NCBI GenBank assembly: GCA_025963635.1
Contig: JAOQAK010000075.1
Location: 1-64,000, forward strand
DNA length: 64,000 nucleotides
Direction of reading: 5' to 3'
Origin: Ferruginibacter sp.
GTDB lineage: Bacteria > Bacteroidota > Bacteroidia > Chitinophagales > Chitinophagaceae
The notes under the pieces are model-generated. The model saw only the letters and a list, made by a program, of their open reading frames with translations. It did no database searches and was not told the origin of the DNA. Of this stretch, positions 4,752 to 27,884 are shown piece by piece (within the stretch, counting starts at the first letter, position 1; each line of letters begins with the position of its first letter). Position numbers and translations under genes: made by a program.

Positions 4752-7700
4752 CCCAACTTATCCACCGAAACAAACCGCTCCTGTATCCGGTCCCATAAAC
4801 TATTGCCTTCCTGGTGATCTTCTTCACAGTAATTTCTTTGACGGAAAGATGGAGCGGCAGGTGTTGTTTTATCACCACCTTTTTTAGCGCTGATCATTTT
4901 TTGTATCAGTCTTGATCTTTCCCTGCTAATCTCTTCACGAAGTATTTTGTCTTTGTCCCTGTCGAAATAAACAATACCGTCTACGATTGTTTTCTCCGCT
5001 TTCGCATAAATACTCAAAGGATGATCGCTCCACAATACAAGGTCGGCATCCTTACCTACCTTGATACTTCCTGTACGATCTGCTACATGCAGCATTATTG
5101 CGGGGTTCAGGGTTACCATCTTCAATGCATCCTGCTCATCCATATTTGCATACTTAATACTTTTTGCAGCTTCCTGGTTTAGTCTTCTTGCCATTTCAGC
5201 ATCATCGCTGTTGATGGCAACGGTTAAGCCAACTTTCTGCATGATGTAAGCATTCTGCGGAATGGCATCAATCACTTCCATCTTATAACTCCACCAATCA
5301 CCAAATGTAGAGGCGGCCGATCCATGCACCTTCATTTTATCTGCAACTTTATAGCCTTCCAGGATATGCGTAAATGTATTTACTTTGAATTTGAACTTAT
5401 CAGCCACCCTTAGCAATGATGTAATTTCGCTTTGTACATACGAGTGACAGGTAATAAAACGTTTCTTGTTTAAGATTTCAACCAGGGCATCCAGTTCTAG
5501 GTCCCTCCTTTTCCCAGCACCCATTTTTTCATAATCTTTTGCCCTTGTAAATGCATCCATTAACACTTCTTCTACACCCATTCTTGTGTCAGGGAATCTC
5601 GAATTTGCGGGGTTATAGGACCGCTTTACATTTTCTCCTAAGGCGAATTTTATAAAGGGGTCCCAGTTGGCAAACTTCAGCTGCTCTGCATTGGCTCCCC
5701 AGCGCAGCTTTAACAATTGCGTTTGCCCGCCGATGGTATTACAACTTCCATGAAGAATATGGCTGCTGGTAACGCCTCCACTCAGCTGGCGATAAATATC
5801 TACGTCTTCCGGATCAATGACATCCCCGATCCTGGTTTCCGATGTTACACTTTGCGAGCATTCATTGATACTTCCGGTTGCAGCAATATGAGAATGTTCA
5901 TCGATGATACCTGCCGATAAATGTTTGCCGGTGCCATCGATTATTTTTGCAGCCGGGTCGTTGATATTCTTTCCAATGGAAGCGATTTTGCCATTCTTCA
6001 GTAACACATCCGTGTTGGCTAATATCCCATCCTTTTCATTCGTCCATACTGTGGCATTTTTTATTAAAATATTTTCCTGTTTTGGCATTCCCCTGTATCC
6101 ATAACCGTTAAAAGGAAACGTGACAGCACTCTCTATCTTTATTGAGTCATTTCTTTTTCTTCCTGTAGTATCCGGCAATATTTTAAACTCACCTGATTTT
6201 ACCGCCGTCCAGGATACCCATTGTCCGTTGGCAAGCTGCCCGGTGCCGCTCCAAATATCTGCACTCATCACGCCCGTTAACCTGGTGATGGCGCTGCTGT
6301 CCTTCTTATTGCTAAAGTTTAATTTTACCAACAGTTCGTTCATCACCAGGTCTGTTTTAAGAGTGTCCTTCCCAAGTAGTGTGGCAGTAGGTTTTGCAGC
6401 CTCGCCCTTTACCTCCAGCTGGTAAATTTCATTATTGATAACCAGTTTATAAATCCCCCGATTGTCTTTCCATCCATCGTCTTTCACAACATATTGATTC
6501 CCTTGTACCCAGTTTTGCAGAATCACCGTTTTTTCGGCGAAAACGGCGCCGGAGGTGATTAAAAAATTGGCGATCTTTCCCGCATCCAGGCTGCCTATCT
6601 TATCAAACATATTCAACAACACAGCGGGCGTTTTGGTCAGTGCCTCTAAAGCCTTTTGTTCCGTTAAGCCCGCCTGGATGGATTTGCGAAGATTGGTAAA
6701 GAATGCACTGTTTTCCTTCAGCCCATTGGTGGTAAGCGCAAAGTTGATATTGGCCTTTTCGAATGCTGCGGGATTAATCACCGCCATTTCCCAATGTTTC
6801 AGATCGGCGAGTGATACAAACCTCGCATCGGTCGGGTCTTCCACATCCATTGCCTGCGGAAAATTTAAAGGAAGGATAAAAGATGCACCGGTCCCTTTTA
6901 TTTCATTGATCCGCTGGTACTCGTTTCCGCCGCCTTTAATGATAAACTGAACACCAAATTCATCACCGATTTTATCTGCCCGCAGATCACTCCATTTATC
7001 ATTGCTTTCAAATATTTGCGGCAAGCCCTGGTTATTGGTAAATGCCTCCAGTGAAAGATTCACTCCTTCTGTAACAGGCCTCGATTTGTACCATTGTGCA
7101 TCAAGATAATTCTGGCGAAGCAAAGCAATCGCCCCCATTAATGAAGTCGGGTAATCCTGTGTGCTAGTCCCCTTGTCAAATGAATAATTAGCGGAAGCCC
7201 TTTCCTTCAATATCACCTTATTTTCTTTCTCATTGGCCAATGTTACTATAGCCCCCGTGCCTCTTGATATTCCATCCATTTGATGGGTAAGAACGGTTCC
7301 AAAACCAATATTGCGTAAGTCTTTCGCTTTAGACTCATTAACAGCAAAAGATGTAGATATATCCGTTTCAGACCGGATGGCCTGGTTCCAGCTGTAAGCG
7401 CCTTTTGTATTGGAGAGCATTTGGGCAGACCGGCCACCTCCACCTTCATTTTTCAGAGGCTGGGTACCATAATCTGAATACATATCGATGAAAGATGGAT
7501 AAATGTACTTGCCTTTACAATCTATCACCACCGCATCCGTGGGAATTACAATACCAACGCCGGTGCCTTCAATTTTCCCCTTGCGGATCACCATAGATGC
7601 ATTTGGGAGTAGCGTATGTGCATCCTTAATAATGGTAGCATTGATAAATGCATAACAACCTTCCCTCGGATTGGCAATATCATTGACCGGATAAGTAGTT

Positions 7701-17300: not shown

Positions 17301-17575
17301 AAATTAAACGAATTGTCGACTTCTATGATAGCTTGTAATCTATTTACATATGAATGGTCTTTGCAATCGCCGTAGCCTTATCTCCCGTGTAAATAATGAT
17401 ATGTTAAACAGCACTTGAACACTTAAAAAAAAACGGCGCAATTTATGTAATGCTTGCAGATAAATCATCTTTGTACCTGCATCTGTTCTTTTTCACAAGA
17501 CTAATGACATCAGATGGATCAGTAGCAGTATTGTACCCTGGAAAAAATTATACAACCCATTTAAATCGGATTACT

Positions 17576-20500
17576 ATGTTTTTAAAAAAATTACCGCTGT
17601 TGTTACTGGTAATAACTACCCTTTTTACTACCCTGTCGGCCCAAACTAAAACCGATTACTCCGTCAACTGGAAAAAGGTGGAAGCCTTTGAACAAAAGGG
17701 CCTCACCAAATCTGCCCTTGCAGAGGTAATGACAATATATGCGTTAGCTATTAAGGATAACAATGATGCGCAGCAGATTAAAAGCAGCATGTATCAAATC
17801 AGGTACCGGACAATGATAGAAGAAGGCAGCCGGGAAAGCAACGTGTTTTTTATTGATACATTGATTGAGAAAGCTAAAACCCCCGCCAAAAACATCTTGC
17901 AAAGTATGCAGGCTGAGCTGCTTTGGCAATACATGAAAAACAATCGTTATAAATTCTACAATCGTACAAAGGTTGTGGAAGAAAATAGTAAAGACATCAG
18001 TACCTGGAGTTTGGATAAATTGCACGCCACCATCTCCCATCTCTACAAAGCATCCCTTAGTAATGAAAATAAATTAAAGGAAACGAAGTTGGAGGGCTTT
18101 GATCCCATCATTGTTAAAGGACAAAATACAAGGCAACTCCGCCCTACCCTGTATGATTTTTTGGCGCACAGGGCGTTGGCTTATTTTATAAATGATGAAA
18201 GGCTGCTTACTAATCCTTCTTATTATTTTACAATCAATGATCCTAAAGCTTTTGCACCAGTTGCAGAATTTATTCATGCATCTTTTTCAACAAAAGACAC
18301 TGCATCACTGCATTACAAAGCAATACTTTTATTGCAGCAAATTTTACAATTTCATTTAAACGATAACGACCGCGATGCATTGCTGGACGCAGACCTGGTG
18401 AGATTAAATTTCATTTATCAATATGCCATCAATGAAAATAAAACAAAGCTGTTTGAAGCGGCATTGCAAAATGTAGAAGATAAATACGCAGGTAACCCTG
18501 GTATCGCCCAGGCAATCTATTTAAGGGCGATGATCTATTTCAATAAGGGCCAAAATTACCAGGCCAATATCAATCCCGCTGATCAATATGAAACTAAAAG
18601 GGCCAAAGAGCTCTGCGAAGCAGTTATTAAAAAATATCCTAAAACAGAGGGCGCTGTGAATTGCCAGAATTTGTTGAACCAAATTTTTCAGCCATCACTC
18701 AATCTCCAAACGGAAAAGGTGAATGTGCCCAACCAGCCATTCAGAACACTCGTTAATTTCAAAAATGCAAAGTCTATTTATTTCCGCGTGATTAAGACCT
18801 CTAAAGAAGATATAAAAAAATTAGACCAAAGCAATTACGACAAACTATGGTCTGCAATTACAGCATTAAAATCTATCAAAAATTGGGAGCTGTCAATGCC
18901 TGATCTGCAGGATTACCAGCCGCATGCCACAGAAATAAAGATAGATGCGCTGCCCAATGGCATGTATTATATCCTCGCAAGTATTGATAAAGATTTTTCG
19001 CTTCAAAAAAATATCATTGCCAAACAATTAACCTACATCAGCAATATCAGTTATGTACACAATAACAACAATGAATACAATGTGCTACACCGCGAAAGCG
19101 GGCAGCCGTTAGCAAATACGCAAGTGCAGGTGTGGGAAACAAAGTACAATTACAACACCAACCGCAACGAAGCGGTAAAAGCTGAAGCGTATACCACTGA
19201 TAAAAACGGGTATTTCAAACTAAGGCAGGCAGCCCAATACCGAAATATCGATTTGCAGCTAACCACTAAGAATGATGAACTCTTCATGGATGAAAATAAT
19301 TACAGCTACAATTACAACACTTACACTGAACCAGGAAAGCCAGTCACCTTTTTATTCACCGATCGGTCTATCTACCGGCCTGGCCAAACGATTTATTTTA
19401 AAGGTATCGTGATCAAAAAAAGCGATCAGGCAGCAGCAACTTCCATCATACCCGGATTTAAAACGGTACTGATTTTAAAAGATGCAAACGGGCAAAAAAT
19501 AAAAGAGCTTAGTCTGCAAACAAATAATTTCGGTTCCTATCATGGTTCGTTCACATTGCCTGAAAATGGCATGAATGGGCAGTTTTCGCTATTTGATACA
19601 ATTACCCTTGCCAATTATTTTTTTAATGTGGAAGAATACAAGCGGCCAAAGTTCTTTGTAGAAGTATCAAAGCCAACCGGAACTTATCGCTTATTCGATA
19701 GCATTAAGGTAACCGGTTTTGCAAAGGGGTATGCTGGGAATGCTTTAGATGGTGCAACCGTTAAATACCGCGTTACCCGCAAAGTGCGCTACCAGCCATG
19801 GTGGTACGCTGTTAATTATGGTTATGGTCGAAGAATAATGCCGCCGGGAAGATCTTCTGATGAAATGGAAATTACCAATGGCGAAATAATGACCGGTAGT
19901 GACGGCAAGTTTCATATCACATTTAAAGCCCTTCCGGATGAAAGCATCAATAAAAAAGACCAGCCAACATTTTATTATGAAGTAAGTGCAGATATTACTG
20001 ATCTCAACGGTGAAACCCGCAGCGGCACAACGTCCGTCGCTGTTGCTTACCAATCTATTCAACTGAACATTGATATTGCGGATAAACTTACTACAGATAG
20101 CATTAAAAATCTAAAGATCCGTTCTTCCAACATCAATGATATTTTTGAAAAGGCGAAAGTGAATGTGACGATCCATAAACTGAAATCCCCCAATAAAATT
20201 TTTAGGGAAAGATTTTGGGAGATGCCGGACCTGTTTGTAATGAGCAAAGATGAATATGAAGGATATTTCCCTTATGACATATATAAAGATGAGGACCAAC
20301 CCAGTAAATGGCTGACCGGTGAAAAAGTACTAGATACCACCGACTCTACAAACATCAATGGCAATTGGCCGTTGGGCAAAAATACATTGAGTGCAGGCTG
20401 GTATAAAATTACCGCGACCACCAGGGATAAATATGGCGAAGAAGTAATATCAACAAAGTTCATTTTGCTGCAGGATGAACGGGCGGCAACTTCCGAAACG

Positions 20501-23500
20501 CCTCTTGATATAATTGCACAGCAAAACGAGGTTGAACCAGGACAAAAAATAAAATACCTGATTAAAACAGGTTTCAACAATATCTGGCTGATCCATACAC
20601 TCAATAAAATGGATGATTCTCACAGCACCACTTATCAAACCATTCAGCCAAACAAACCTTTCGAAAATGAAATTGATGTAAATGAAAAAGATCGGGGAGG
20701 TATGGCGCTGAGTTATGTTTTTGTACAACACAACCGGGTTTATAAAGGAGAAGAAAGTTTTTCCATTCCATGGGACAATAAGGAACTGTCAATTAATTAT
20801 CAAACGTTCAGGGATAAGATATTGCCGGGAGCCGAAGAAAAATGGACTGCCAAAATAAGCGGTAACAAGGGTGAAAAAGTATCAGCGGAAATGTTGGTAA
20901 GTATGTACGATGCAAGCCTTGATCAATTTAAACCGCAAAACTGGACTGCCTTGAATATCTGGCCGGGGCTGCAAAACAGAATACAATGGACGGAGAATGG
21001 TTTTAGTGTAATTAATTCAGACGAATACAACAGGATGAACTTCCAATACTTAAGTCCTGTTCCTAAATTATACGACAGGTTGCTACCGGTTTACCTCGAA
21101 AACGCGTTGGGAGATGTGGTGGTAGTTGGATATGGAAGTACAAAACGAAAGAGTGTAACGGGCAGTGTTGCTGAGATTAGTAATGACGCGATGGCTGCCC
21201 CGCAGGCAAATCAAATGCTGGCTGGAAGAGTTGCGGGAGTCGTAACAGATGAAAAAGAACAAATAGTTGCAGACTCTACGGGCATAGCAAACAACATTTC
21301 ACCGGAATTAAACAACAGCAATGTACAGGTGCGAAAAAATTTCAATGAAACAGCCTTCTTCTTTCCTGATCTTACAACAGATGCAGATGGAAATGTATCA
21401 TTTACTTTCACGATACCTGAAGCATTAACAGAATGGAAACTGATGACCTTAGCTCATACCAAAAACCTGGCAAGTGGCTATTCAGAAAAAAAAGTAGTTA
21501 CTCAAAAACCATTAATGATACAGCCGAATGCGCCACGGTTTATAAGGGAAGGCGATCGGATGGAATTTAGTGCGAAAATTGTAAACCTGAGTGAAACTGA
21601 AATTACCGGAACCGCTCAACTCGAATTATTAGACGCAGCATCGGGCAAGTCGATCGATGGATGGTTTAAGAATGTTTTTCCAAACCAATATTTCACGGTG
21701 GCAGCAGGCCAGAGCGTAGCAGTTAAGTTTCCCATGGAAGTGCCTTTTAATTTTAATTCAGCCATCACTTACCGGGTACTCGCCAAATCATCGGCTAACG
21801 CCGCTTTAAAAGAGCTGAGTAATTTTTCTGATGGCGAAGAAGCGCCCCTACCCGTATTAACTAACCGGATGCTTGTTACCGAAAGCATGCCCATCAACTT
21901 ACGCAATACCAGTAATAAAGATTTCACATTTGAGAAGCTACTTAACAGCGGCAAAAGCAATACCATCAGCAATCATTCAGTAACGGTTGAGTACACATCT
22001 AATCCTGCCTGGTACGCAGTTCAGGCACTTCCTTATTTGATGGAGTATCCATTCGATTGTGCAGAACAAACATTTAACCGATATTATGCCAATACCCTGG
22101 CGACTCATATTAGCAATTCGATGCCCAAAATAAAGGAGGTTTTTGAAAAATGGAAAAATGCGGATACCAGTGCACTGTTAAGTAACCTGCAAAAAAATGA
22201 AGAATTAAAGGCAGTCCTGTTACAGGAAACTCCGTGGGTGTTGAATGCGCAAAATGAAACCCAGCAAAAGAAAAATGTCGCCCTACTGTTCGACATGGTA
22301 AAAATGGGAGCCGAAACAGGTAAAGCGCTCGCCAAGTTAAAAGAATTACAAAGTCCGAATGGCGGTTTCGTTTGGTTCAAAGGCGGTCCTGACGACAGGT
22401 ACATGACACAATACATCCTGACAGGCATTGGTCACCTTCGGAAATTAAATGCACTTTCAGCAAGTGATTATGATAAACTCAAGGGAGTGGTAGATAAGGC
22501 GATCCCCTATCTCGACCGGAAAATCCAGGGAGATTATGAGAATTTGCTAAGAAGCAAGACAAATCTAAAAAATAATAATCTTGGTACGTTGGCAATTCAA
22601 TATTTGTACATGAGGAGTTTTTTTAAAGAATATGCTATCTCGGCTTTTGAACAAACAGCTTATACCTATTATCATGAGCAGGCAAAAAAATATTGGCTGA
22701 ACAATGAAAAATACCTGCAGGCGATGATTGCCCTTGCCCTGTATCGTACCAATGATCCTGCAACTTCCAAAGCGATCATTCAATCGTTAAAAGAAAACTC
22801 CATCAATAAGGAAGAAATGGGAATGTATTGGAAAGAATGGACTGCGGGTAACAACTATTACTGGCACCAGGCACCTATTGAAAGCCAGGCATTAATGATA
22901 GAAGCATTTACCGATATTGATAAAAATACCAATACGATAAACGATCTAAAAACCTGGTTGCTGAAACAAAAGCAAACTCAAAACTGGAGAACCACCAGGG
23001 CCACTGCCGAAGCTTGCTATGCTTTATTGTTATCCGGAAGCAATTGGTTAAATGAAGAAACATCGGTAGAAATCAAATTGGGTAACACGCTTATTAAAAG
23101 CACCGACAATACAACCGAAGCAGGAACCGGATACTTCAAAAAAACAATTCAAGGCGAAAATGTAAAACCAGCAATGGGCAATATCTCAGTAACGATCAAT
23201 TTAACACGAACTAAGACCCCCCCGCTAGCTAGCGGGGGCAGGGGGGCATGGGGCGCCGTTTACTGGCAATATTTTGAAGACCTTGAGAAGATATCTACTG
23301 CAGCCACGCCATTGCAATTGAATAAAAAACTCTTTATCGAAAAGAACACCGACAAAGGACCCGTATTGGAGGCAATCAGCGATGGAGCTGGCCTAAAAGT
23401 AGGCGACAAGGTGAAAGTTCGGATTGAATTGCGGGTCGACCGTGACATGGAATATGTACACATGAAGGATATGCGGGCAGCTTGTATGGAACCGGTAAAT

Positions 23501-23743
23501 GTGATCAGCGATTATAAATACCAGGGTGGATTAGGTTATTACGAAAGCACAAAGGATGCCAGTACCAACTTTTTCTTCGGTTGGTTGCCGAGAGGCACTT
23601 ACGTATTTGAATATGCCATGTTTGTGACACATTCAGGAAATTTCAGTAACGGCATAACAACCATCCAGTGTATGTATGCTCCCGAATTTACAAGCCATAG
23701 TGAAGGAATCAGGGTGAGTGTGGAAAACCGGCCCGCTCCTTAA
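17576..23743 (+). CDS. Alpha-2-macroglobulin family protein with internal SusC/RagA plug-like signature
   Basis: Signal peptide MFLKKLPLLLLVITTLFTTLSAQ; MG2 motif FLFTDRSIYRPGQTIYFKGI; thioester-type CAEQ; about 2055 aa from this start. The ORF track begins upstream at 17450. Confidence 0.9.
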   Translation: MFLKKLPLLLLVITTLFTTLSAQTKTDYSVNWKKVEAFEQKGLTKSALAEVMTIYALAIKDNNDAQQIKSSMYQIRYRTMIEEGSRESNVFFIDTLIEKAKTPAKNILQSMQAELLWQYMKNNRYKFYNRTKVVEENSKDISTWSLDKLHATISHLYKASLSNENKLKETKLEGFDPIIVKGQNTRQLRPTLYDFLAHRALAYFINDERLLTNPSYYFTINDPKAFAPVAEFIHASFSTKDTASLHYKAILLLQQILQFHLNDNDRDALLDADLVRLNFIYQYAINENKTKLFEAALQNVEDKYAGNPGIAQAIYLRAMIYFNKGQNYQANINPADQYETKRAKELCEAVIKKYPKTEGAVNCQNLLNQIFQPSLNLQTEKVNVPNQPFRTLVNFKNAKSIYFRVIKTSKEDIKKLDQSNYDKLWSAITALKSIKNWELSMPDLQDYQPHATEIKIDALPNGMYYILASIDKDFSLQKNIIAKQLTYISNISYVHNNNNEYNVLHRESGQPLANTQVQVWETKYNYNTNRNEAVKAEAYTTDKNGYFKLRQAAQYRNIDLQLTTKNDELFMDENNYSYNYNTYTEPGKPVTFLFTDRSIYRPGQTIYFKGIVIKKSDQAAATSIIPGFKTVLILKDANGQKIKELSLQTNNFGSYHGSFTLPENGMNGQFSLFDTITLANYFFNVEEYKRPKFFVEVSKPTGTYRLFDSIKVTGFAKGYAGNALDGATVKYRVTRKVRYQPWWYAVNYGYGRRIMPPGRSSDEMEITNGEIMTGSDGKFHITFKALPDESINKKDQPTFYYEVSADITDLNGETRSGTTSVAVAYQSIQLNIDIADKLTTDSIKNLKIRSSNINDIFEKAKVNVTIHKLKSPNKIFRERFWEMPDLFVMSKDEYEGYFPYDIYKDEDQPSKWLTGEKVLDTTDSTNINGNWPLGKNTLSAGWYKITATTRDKYGEEVISTKFILLQDERAATSETPLDIIAQQNEVEPGQKIKYLIKTGFNNIWLIHTLNKMDDSHSTTYQTIQPNKPFENEIDVNEKDRGGMALSYVFVQHNRVYKGEESFSIPWDNKELSINYQTFRDKILPGAEEKWTAKISGNKGEKVSAEMLVSMYDASLDQFKPQNWTALNIWPGLQNRIQWTENGFSVINSDEYNRMNFQYLSPVPKLYDRLLPVYLENALGDVVVVGYGSTKRKSVTGSVAEISNDAMAAPQANQMLAGRVAGVVTDEKEQIVADSTGIANNISPELNNSNVQVRKNFNETAFFFPDLTTDADGNVSFTFTIPEALTEWKLMTLAHTKNLASGYSEKKVVTQKPLMIQPNAPRFIREGDRMEFSAKIVNLSETEITGTAQLELLDAASGKSIDGWFKNVFPNQYFTVAAGQSVAVKFPMEVPFNFNSAITYRVLAKSSANAALKELSNFSDGEEAPLPVLTNRMLVTESMPINLRNTSNKDFTFEKLLNSGKSNTISNHSVTVEYTSNPAWYAVQALPYLMEYPFDCAEQTFNRYYANTLATHISNSMPKIKEVFEKWKNADTSALLSNLQKNEELKAVLLQETPWVLNAQNETQQKKNVALLFDMVKMGAETGKALAKLKELQSPNGGFVWFKGGPDDRYMTQYILTGIGHLRKLNALSASDYDKLKGVVDKAIPYLDRKIQGDYENLLRSKTNLKNNNLGTLAIQYLYMRSFFKEYAISAFEQTAYTYYHEQAKKYWLNNEKYLQAMIALALYRTNDPATSKAIIQSLKENSINKEEMGMYWKEWTAGNNYYWHQAPIESQALMIEAFTDIDKNTNTINDLKTWLLKQKQTQNWRTTRATAEACYALLLSGSNWLNEETSVEIKLGNTLIKSTDNTTEAGTGYFKKTIQGENVKPAMGNISVTINLTRTKTPPLASGGRGAWGAVYWQYFEDLEKISTAATPLQLNKKLFIEKNTDKGPVLEAISDGAGLKVGDKVKVRIELRVDRDMEYVHMKDMRAACMEPVNVISDYKYQGGLGYYESTKDASTNFFFGWLPRGTYVFEYAMFVTHSGNFSNGITTIQCMYAPEFTSHSEGIRVSVENRPAP
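21111..21250 (+). other. SusC/RagA TonB-dependent receptor plug-like segment within the A2M protein
   Basis: Encodes GDVVVVGYGSTKRKSVTGSVAEISNDAMAAPQANQMLAGRVAGVVT, closely resembling the SusC/RagA signature EVVVVGYGxQKK..TGSV...LxGRxAGVxV. Confidence 0.85.
22058..22069 (+). other. Thioester motif codons (Cys-Ala-Glu-Gln) of A2M
   Basis: tgt gca gaa caa in YPFDCAEQTFNRYY. Confidence 0.75.
23217..23255. repeat. C/G-rich palindromic insert within the A2M coding sequence
   Basis: ccCCCCCGCTAGCTAGCGGGGGcaggggggcatggggc; 23219-23238 is a perfect 20-bp palindrome; encodes TPPLASGGRGAWG in frame. Confidence 0.8.
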
Positions 23744-26609: not shown

Positions 26610-27884
26610 CTATTGCTGAACTACCGCTTTTTGTACACGTGTTGTATTATCGGGCGCTTTAATTTCCAATTGGTAAATTCCCCCGCTTAACCTATTTGTA
26701 AACAAGGTTTGGGAGACGTTACTCACGTTTACAGCAAATTTGCCCGTGTACACCACCTGCCCGTTATTATTCATCAATCTTACCTGGTAAACACCGGTGG
26801 GCTGATTGGTGAACTGCAAATTAATTGTATTCCCCCGGATAGGATTTGGATATATGGTTATAGATCCGTCGGATTTTGCTGAAGCGACCTTTATTATAAT
26901 GCTGAATTTTTGTGAACCATCGCGATCCACACTTTTTATGCGGTAGAAATTATTTCCCCCGGCCGGCTTATCATCTACCCAGGAGTAGCTGTTATATGCG
27001 TTGTTCGTCTTAGAAACATCTATTGAATTCACCTTAGTGAAATCAATACCGGTTGTTGAATGCTCCACTTCGTATTTCAGAACATTAATTTCATTCTCAG
27101 CTTTCCAGCCTATTGATATTTTATTATTCTGCTGGAATCCTTCTAACGATGTAAAGGTTACCGGTAAGGTTGTAGGCACAAGGTTGGCCCGGAAAATGAT
27201 CCTGAATCTGTTTACATCAGCTGAAGCTGCATCGGTATTCACTGAAAAATTAATTTTTGTATTTCCGCTGAGGGTAAGCAGCGTGCTCGTGCCCAGGTAA
27301 GCGTCTTCCAAAGCAGCCTGCATTCCGGGATGATTCAAACTGATCGTTATAAATTCCAGTTGATAGGCCCGCCGGGTCGTTTTCCAAAGTTTAAAATATA
27401 ATGTGTCGCTTATGTAAATCAACGGCCTTCTCTCAATAGCCAGAATAGTTCCGTAACGGGATAAGCCGAGGTTTTCATTGGGATTAGTGAACTTGTAAGC
27501 GTCTTCTAAAGTAACGATATCATGAAATAAATTATTGTACTCTGTCAGAACCCCGTCGGCCAGACGGGTGGTATTGTCGGCATTTAAAAGATAAAGATTG
27601 GTTCTGATACTTTCCGATGTTAAAGGAGAATAGGTGTTCCTCAATGCGGACGAGTGATGAATATTTAGCGAAAAAGGAGCTGTATAATTTTTAGTTTCGA
27701 CGGAAAAAGATGCGAGCGAGATAACGCTAAATAATCCCATCCAAAAGCAAGTATAAAAAGAATAATAAGATCTGTTGCAAGATGGTAAAACAAAGCCAAA
27801 TAGTTGATGGGTAGATTTTTGGGGTTCCATAGGCTTTAATTGATTTATTAGGATATCTAAAGTAAGTGTGCTACACTTAACCAT
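26610..27884 (-). CDS. Secreted protein with T9SS-type C-terminal sorting domain
   Basis: C-terminus SDGSITIYPNPIRGNTINLQFTNQPTGVYQVRLMNNNGQVVYTGKF...GGIYQLEIKAPDNTTRVQKAVVQQ; the true start may lie further in (e.g. MEPQKST). Confidence 0.8.
   Translation of the reverse strand: MVKCSTLTLDILINQLKPMEPQKSTHQLFGFVLPSCNRSYYSFYTCFWMGLFSVISLASFSVETKNYTAPFSLNIHHSSALRNTYSPLTSESIRTNLYLLNADNTTRLADGVLTEYNNLFHDIVTLEDAYKFTNPNENLGLSRYGTILAIERRPLIYISDTLYFKLWKTTRRAYQLEFITISLNHPGMQAALEDAYLGTSTLLTLSGNTKINFSVNTDAASADVNRFRIIFRANLVPTTLPVTFTSLEGFQQNNKISIGWKAENEINVLKYEVEHSTTGIDFTKVNSIDVSKTNNAYNSYSWVDDKPAGGNNFYRIKSVDRDGSQKFSIIIKVASAKSDGSITIYPNPIRGNTINLQFTNQPTGVYQVRLMNNNGQVVYTGKFAVNVSNVSQTLFTNRLSGGIYQLEIKAPDNTTRVQKAVVQQ

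Follow-up and report, generated by a model that had tools for sequence, protein, structure and literature searches.

Alpha-2-macroglobulins (A2Ms) are traps that are triggered by cleavage of a bait (PMC4498604). A cut in this disordered region activates the protein; bacterial A2Ms have been proposed to act as periplasmic defences, and their type I representatives carry a CXEQ thioester motif (PMC4498604, PMC5764988). In the type I proteins ECAM (YfhM) of Escherichia coli and SaA2M of Salmonella, an MG2 domain, the bait, PF00207 and bMG10 follow each other in this order. The human bait, which serves as a broad-spectrum protease target, is likewise disordered and variable and lies directly ahead of the VRKYFPETW / VQVRKNFNETA strand. 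We know of no indication that it is derived from the genes of self proteins. Two further systems are of relevance here. In plants, NLR proteins with integrated decoys are defence proteins that carry a copy of an attacker's target, which turns the attack into the trigger of the response. SusC/RagA transporters (TIGR04056) possess a TonB box, which reads VDEVVV in Bt1763 (PMC7782687). Here, we describe an A2M gene in a stretch of 64,000 nucleotides of Ferruginibacter sp. (contig JAOQAK010000075.1, "the window"), the product of which we compare with these systems, and relate it to 184 baits from Bacteroidota. The findings bear on what bacterial A2Ms guard against and on what sets the specificity of their baits. 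A literature search, the scope of which did not extend to preprints and many subscription journals, returned no report of self-derived A2M baits.

A putative type I A2M

The features of the window A2M are collected in Table 1. No stop codon interrupts its reading frame across the SusC-like region. The likely true start is the ATG at about position 17576, MFLKKLPLLLLVITTLFTTLSAQ, which provides a Sec signal peptide without a lipobox cysteine; orthologous A2Ms were seen by eye to carry similar signal peptides. Pfam searches also located MG2 (aa 633-714, E=2.6e-17). By its sequence, the protein classifies as a type I (thioester) bacterial A2M: it has MG2, PF00207 and bMG10 in the same order as ECAM and SaA2M, a CXEQ motif and a bait that is predicted to be disordered. 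It differs from both in the absence of a lipobox and in its gene neighbourhood, in which we found, by eye, sucD upstream and a run of ribosomal protein genes downstream instead of pbpC. The E. coli-type combination of an inner-membrane lipoprotein with an adjacent pbpC is thus not present in the window, and this trait is variable and not essential to the family. As the protein has a Sec signal and no lipobox, and as the donors of bait segments described below are represented largely by periplasmic parts, it is exported and probably resides in the periplasm.

Table 1. Position of the A2M gene and of the elements encoded by it in the window
Feature	Position	Strand	Basis and remarks
A2M open reading frame	17450..23743	+	2097 aa from first ATG; translation, Pfam domains
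Bait region, hypervariable loop from MYDASLD strand/helix to RKNFNETAFFFPDL	20924..21331	+	Loop extraction; A2ML1 alignment; AlphaFold2
SusC/RagA-like segment (TonB box and plug start) inside bait	21098..21250	+	TIGR04056; own-genome SusC profile
TonB-box-like LGDVVVVGYG	21107..21136	+	Motif; 30 nt 90% identical to same-genome SusC gene (L230)
KSVTGSV (SusC KKDLTGAV)	21149..21178	+	Motif scan
LAGRVAGV (SusC LQGRVAGV)	21215..21241	+	Motif scan
A2M domain PF00207	21350..21613	+	Pfam, aa 1301-1388, E=3.1e-20; directly after bait
Thioester motif CAEQ (CXEQ)	22058..22069	+	Invariant in 14-sequence alignment
bMG10, C-terminal macroglobulin domain of bacterial A2Ms	23315..23686	+	Pfam, aa 1956-2079, E=1e-31

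Not far from the A2M gene, a type IX secretion sorting domain (Por_Secre_tail) is present in the protein encoded at 26613-27884, from which we conclude that the organism probably uses a type IX secretion system (T9SS). A long run of genes on the minus strand (28421-59340) includes enzymes of polysaccharide biosynthesis (Polysacc_synt_2, DegT aminotransferase, asparagine synthase, HMGL-like).

A SusC-like segment in the bait region

The first-pass annotation had pointed to a SusC/RagA TonB-receptor plug signature inside the A2M. The respective sequence, LGDVVVVGYGSTKRKSVTGSVAEISNDAMAAPQANQMLAGRVAGVVTD, is present in the reading frame at about 21107-21250, and profile searches agreed with its assignment. 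The complete 136-aa loop gave a single match among 18,950 NCBIfam models, namely TIGR04056 (positions 76-129 of the 981 in the model, E=1.6e-10), and a profile for which 20 SusC proteins encoded in this genome were used matched at model positions 125-178 (E=1.4e-14). The segment shares the TonB box, KKDLTGAV and LxGRVAGV elements with SusC/RagA transporters and is 50-54% identical to the best same-genome SusC proteins. In contrast to a transporter, it covers just 54 of the 1037 profile positions and is situated in a loop predicted to be disordered. Neither the Pfam Plug domain (PF07715) nor TIGR04057, the signature of the plug C-half, was matched in the window copy. An N-terminal extension (NTE), a complete plug and the 22-strand barrel are all absent from the window A2M; as had been stated in the annotation, no barrel follows, and the sequence continues directly with PF00207, CAEQ and bMG10. 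When a 92-aa query was compared with its own genome, 37 other places were found at E<=0.01, nearly all of them in frames of about 1000-1175 aa. Those that were read are SusC proteins, and the A2M was the only other carrier seen there.

The position of the segment proved informative. It lies immediately ahead of the conserved RKNFNETAFFFPDL strand, just as the human bait does, and VQVRKNFNETAFFFPDL, downstream of it, marks the start of PF00207, with the alignment to human A2ML1 spanning the junction. The bait of human A2M sits just before this junction as well. In orthologous proteins both flanks are conserved and enclose a hypervariable stretch. An AlphaFold2 prediction run on a 62-sequence alignment yielded confident flanking macroglobulin domains, and model residues 218-301, including the SusC-like peptide, had pLDDT values below 50 and no regular structure. 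Position, predicted disorder and hypervariability identify the SusC-like segment as the bait, and the protein to which it belongs as a type I A2M has its thioester CAEQ further downstream. The signature is truly embedded in the A2M, as originally described, not as an insertion into a standard domain but at the place of the bait region. A chimeric join in the assembly is ruled out, because orthologues in unrelated assemblies share the architecture and have comparable loops. These findings explain why some A2Ms may carry a TonB-receptor plug annotation and caution against reading such proteins as transporter fusions.

Baits of orthologous A2Ms

Among 150 genomes from the family, 94 had an A2M orthologue. 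Surveys of the family, the class and named genomes together provided 184 non-redundant Bacteroidota baits, 97 of them Chitinophagaceae-centred and 87 from elsewhere. A donor match or motif was recognized in 68 of the 97 and in 11 of the 87, respectively. In an unbiased scan with the 18,950 NCBIfam models, TIGR04056 was the commonest match (19/96 Chitinophagaceae-centred baits, 6/81 others), and most other models that matched repeatedly were TonB-receptor models as well. At E<0.01, the SusC profile detected 26 of the 184 baits as compared to 1 of 3680 shuffled baits and none of 744 non-bait segments from the same A2Ms; profiles for other donors detected five (TonB), five (OmpA) and four (GldK) baits at the same threshold. 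Strict motif thresholds were passed by 29 baits for the TonB box, 33 for LxGRVAGV, 15 for IRIRG and 11 for TGAV, with 0.18 expected for each. The segment in the window is one case of a family-wide pattern that involves several envelope machines. About 30% of the baits in the Chitinophagaceae set and most of those from elsewhere had no recognizable donor, and when two motif-poor loops, L028 and L044, were picked arbitrarily and compared with their own genomes, no donor emerged.

The survey also bears on the idea, raised in the first-pass annotation, that the segment serves for docking to a SusD/TonB partner. The TonB box of the bait could recruit TonB-ExbBD or place the A2M near TonB-dependent receptors, or the pull of TonB could trigger the bait. 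The segment does cover the region of the functional SusC TonB box known from Bt1763 (PMC7782687), and it does so in a loop predicted to be disordered and exposed. However, the motif occurs in only 29 of the 184 baits and is absent from the relatives examined in the same genus (L016, L041), and many baits have LxGRVAGV or IRIRG alone or contain pieces of TonB, OmpA, GldK, GldJ or SprA instead. We therefore consider docking very improbable.

Donor genes in the same genomes

Short in-frame stretches that stem from envelope machines of the cell itself were found in the baits again and again. Their sources are the N-termini of SusC/TonB receptors, the periplasmic linker of TonB, the linker of an OmpA-family protein, the T9SS/gliding lipoproteins GldK and GldJ, and, in one case, SprA. 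Here, the names TonB, OmpA, GldK, GldJ and SprA stand for our reading of sequences and gene neighbours rather than for family scans of the donors. Six donor families were tested, and all except SusC had been noticed before they were tested. The bait of L021 matched the linker of a TonB encoded next to ExbD in its own genome (63% identity over 35 aa, E=4e-7), and in the bait of L102 a stretch of 34 aa was 65% identical to the linker of a same-genome OmpA-family protein (E=4e-9). L029 combines a GldK piece (E=3e-5) with an OmpA-linker piece (E=0.027), both from its own genome. Of the two baits from the window's genus, L041 holds GldK and SprA pieces from its own genome and L016 holds the SusC motif LAGKVAGV together with a GldJ piece, likewise from its own genome.

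Similarity to the same-genome donor extended to the DNA in five of the six loci tested for donors, with 70-90% identity over short blocks. These comprised 28-70 nt at 77-90% identity in the window, L029, L041 and L102, and 80 nt at 70% identity in L021; no significant DNA block was obtained for the pair of L016 and GldJ. Similarity to the cell's own donors over 28-80 nt of DNA indicates capture of real DNA pieces, and it rules out convergence at the peptide level without homology. Fragment capture is thus well supported, and so is the suggestion made in the first-pass annotation that the bait is derived from a plug, for which position, predicted disorder and hypervariability speak in addition. 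Pieces of the cell's own envelope genes occur in these baits, though not in all of them. Chance as an explanation is ruled out by the shuffled baits and by control proteins: at E<0.01, the 43 other proteins of the window matched a single bait, weakly, and 29 envelope donors matched 43 baits. The one control match (to L174, E=0.007) stems from an outer-membrane beta-barrel protein (PF13505, 60493-61887), which is perhaps another envelope donor.

Donor regions, reading frame and history

The baits have sampled their donors unevenly. All 40 SusC matches fall into the NTE, TonB box and plug (profile positions 43-263 of 1037); none of the 184 baits matched beyond position 263, and none in the barrel, even though leave-one-out tests put the detection rate for barrel fragments at 36-73%. 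The 11 TonB matches are confined to the linker, despite fragments of the C-terminal domain being easier to detect, and the same part of the OmpA-family protein accounts for 7 of 8 matches; all six GldK matches lie in its C-terminal part. The SusC barrel, the TonB C-terminal domain and the OmpA domain were thus never sampled, though their fragments are detectable. Such a bias could also arise if the loop tolerates certain pieces and not others. With regard to reading frame, all 64 matches between baits and donors used the coding frame, and the remaining five frames gave no match. Since out-of-frame pieces would decay quickly, this result shows retention at the peptide level rather than capture in frame. 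Mismatches between captured pieces and their own donors numbered 14, 7 and 43 at codon positions 1, 2 and 3, an excess at the third position over an expectation of 50% (p=0.004), and in two GldK blocks the differing codons were all synonymous (5/5 in each). The pattern fits peptide retention, and part of it is explained by the constraint on the donor itself.

A tree of the flanking domain of 97 baits was calculated by a quick method, with one TonB and one OmpA match that looked spurious being left out. Presence of SusC pieces required 31 changes among the 97 baits, compared to a mean of 31.9 for shuffled labels. TonB pieces occurred 10 times, OmpA pieces 7 times and GldK pieces 6 times, each time separately. 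In addition, 15 baits have both GRVAGV and the TonB box, and in 10 of these GRVAGV comes first, which is the reverse of the order in SusC. The reversed order and the separate events for TonB, OmpA and GldK disfavour a single ancestral plug insertion followed by decay.

An explanation without any function for the self origin would be that a tolerant loop gains in-frame pieces from abundant genes for exported proteins by illegitimate recombination, and that these act as neutral filler, a role that any flexible and exportable sequence could play. The scattered distribution of fragments on the tree and the frequency of baits without a donor agree with this notion, as does the size of the SusC family, which with dozens of copies in the window genome is a likely source. 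It sits less well with the recurrence of single- or low-copy genes (TonB, GldK, GldJ, OmpA) as donors, with the complete lack of the most conserved and easily detected donor parts, and with mismatches that are mostly in the third codon position and, in the two GldK blocks, wholly synonymous. We consider neutral filling unlikely on balance, but a serious contender.

A possible decoy function

The reading that we regard as best, at slightly better than even chances, is that the bait acts as a self-derived decoy. While the capture of fragments is well supported, the decoy function is inferred. In this lineage, the bait is rebuilt time and again out of short in-frame stretches of DNA copied from envelope genes of the same cell, drawn from the N-termini of TonB-dependent receptors (NTE, TonB box, plug), the periplasmic TonB linker, the OmpA-family linker, GldK, GldJ and SprA. 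According to our proposal, a protease entering the envelope with the ability to cut the machines for uptake, TonB, OmpA or the T9SS would encounter the same peptides in the bait. Cleavage of the bait would spring the trap and expose the thioester, and this would bond to the attacking protease in a suicide trap. Selection would then have favoured mimicry over mere tolerance of the captured pieces.

The same donors could also point to the cell's own proteases. The bait might mimic the natural targets of those housekeeping proteases by which misfolded SusC or TonB is degraded, and the A2M might buffer self-proteolysis; own envelope proteins are indeed probable substrates of quality-control proteases. 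Irreversible suicide trapping, however, is better suited to foreign proteases, and with a fixed target among self proteases one would hardly expect the pieces to turn over so rapidly. This makes regulation of own proteases a highly doubtful explanation.

If baits are copied from self, each of them would be a record of the envelope segments attacked by proteases in its lineage, and A2Ms would be a clear example of bacterial defence by self-mimicry in which the mechanism of diversification can be seen. For ECAM and SaA2M we found no report of such self-envelope fragments, of which the bait in the window is made in part. The proposed decoy resembles the integrated decoys of plant NLR proteins in that a defence protein would carry the copied target of an attack. 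It differs from them, as an A2M is a protease trap and not a receptor and as the copies are short, shuffled peptides rather than whole domains. We tentatively suggest, at somewhat less than even chances, that Bacteroidota possess a cell-autonomous decoy defence as a counterpart of integrated-decoy immunity, in which peptides copied from vital envelope machines (SusC receptors, TonB, OmpA, T9SS lipoproteins) would continually renew the bait of a periplasmic A2M, an attack on any of these machines would set off a covalent trap, and fragment capture would be the diversifying mechanism.

Baits of unusual form

In three loci (L077, L078 and L111) the upstream open frame ends in or near the bait, in an area near position 5000, and the open stretch ahead of the RKNF strand used as the anchor comprises 52, 22 or no residues. 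This may be due to a frameshift, an assembly error or real breakage. Several baits from other families (L139, L141, L144, L148 and similar ones) contain (L/Q)SIVVT or LESVVVT, which are reminiscent of a TonB box and remained below our thresholds.

Other baits contain longer pieces. The plug C-half was found in L060, L068, L108, L212 and L216, and as the piece in L068 is predicted to fold within the bait, some baits appear to be more than flexible peptides. The NTE domain together with the TonB box is present in L184, L173 and L183. In the pairs L184/L173 and L183/L177 the bait comprises a whole carboxypeptidase-regulatory-like NTE domain, which is followed by a TonB-box-like motif in three of the four. 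For these two families with NTE-like domains an ancestral plug insertion is possible. Baits with NTE domains come from two further families of the class and represent an enlarged version of the phenomenon.
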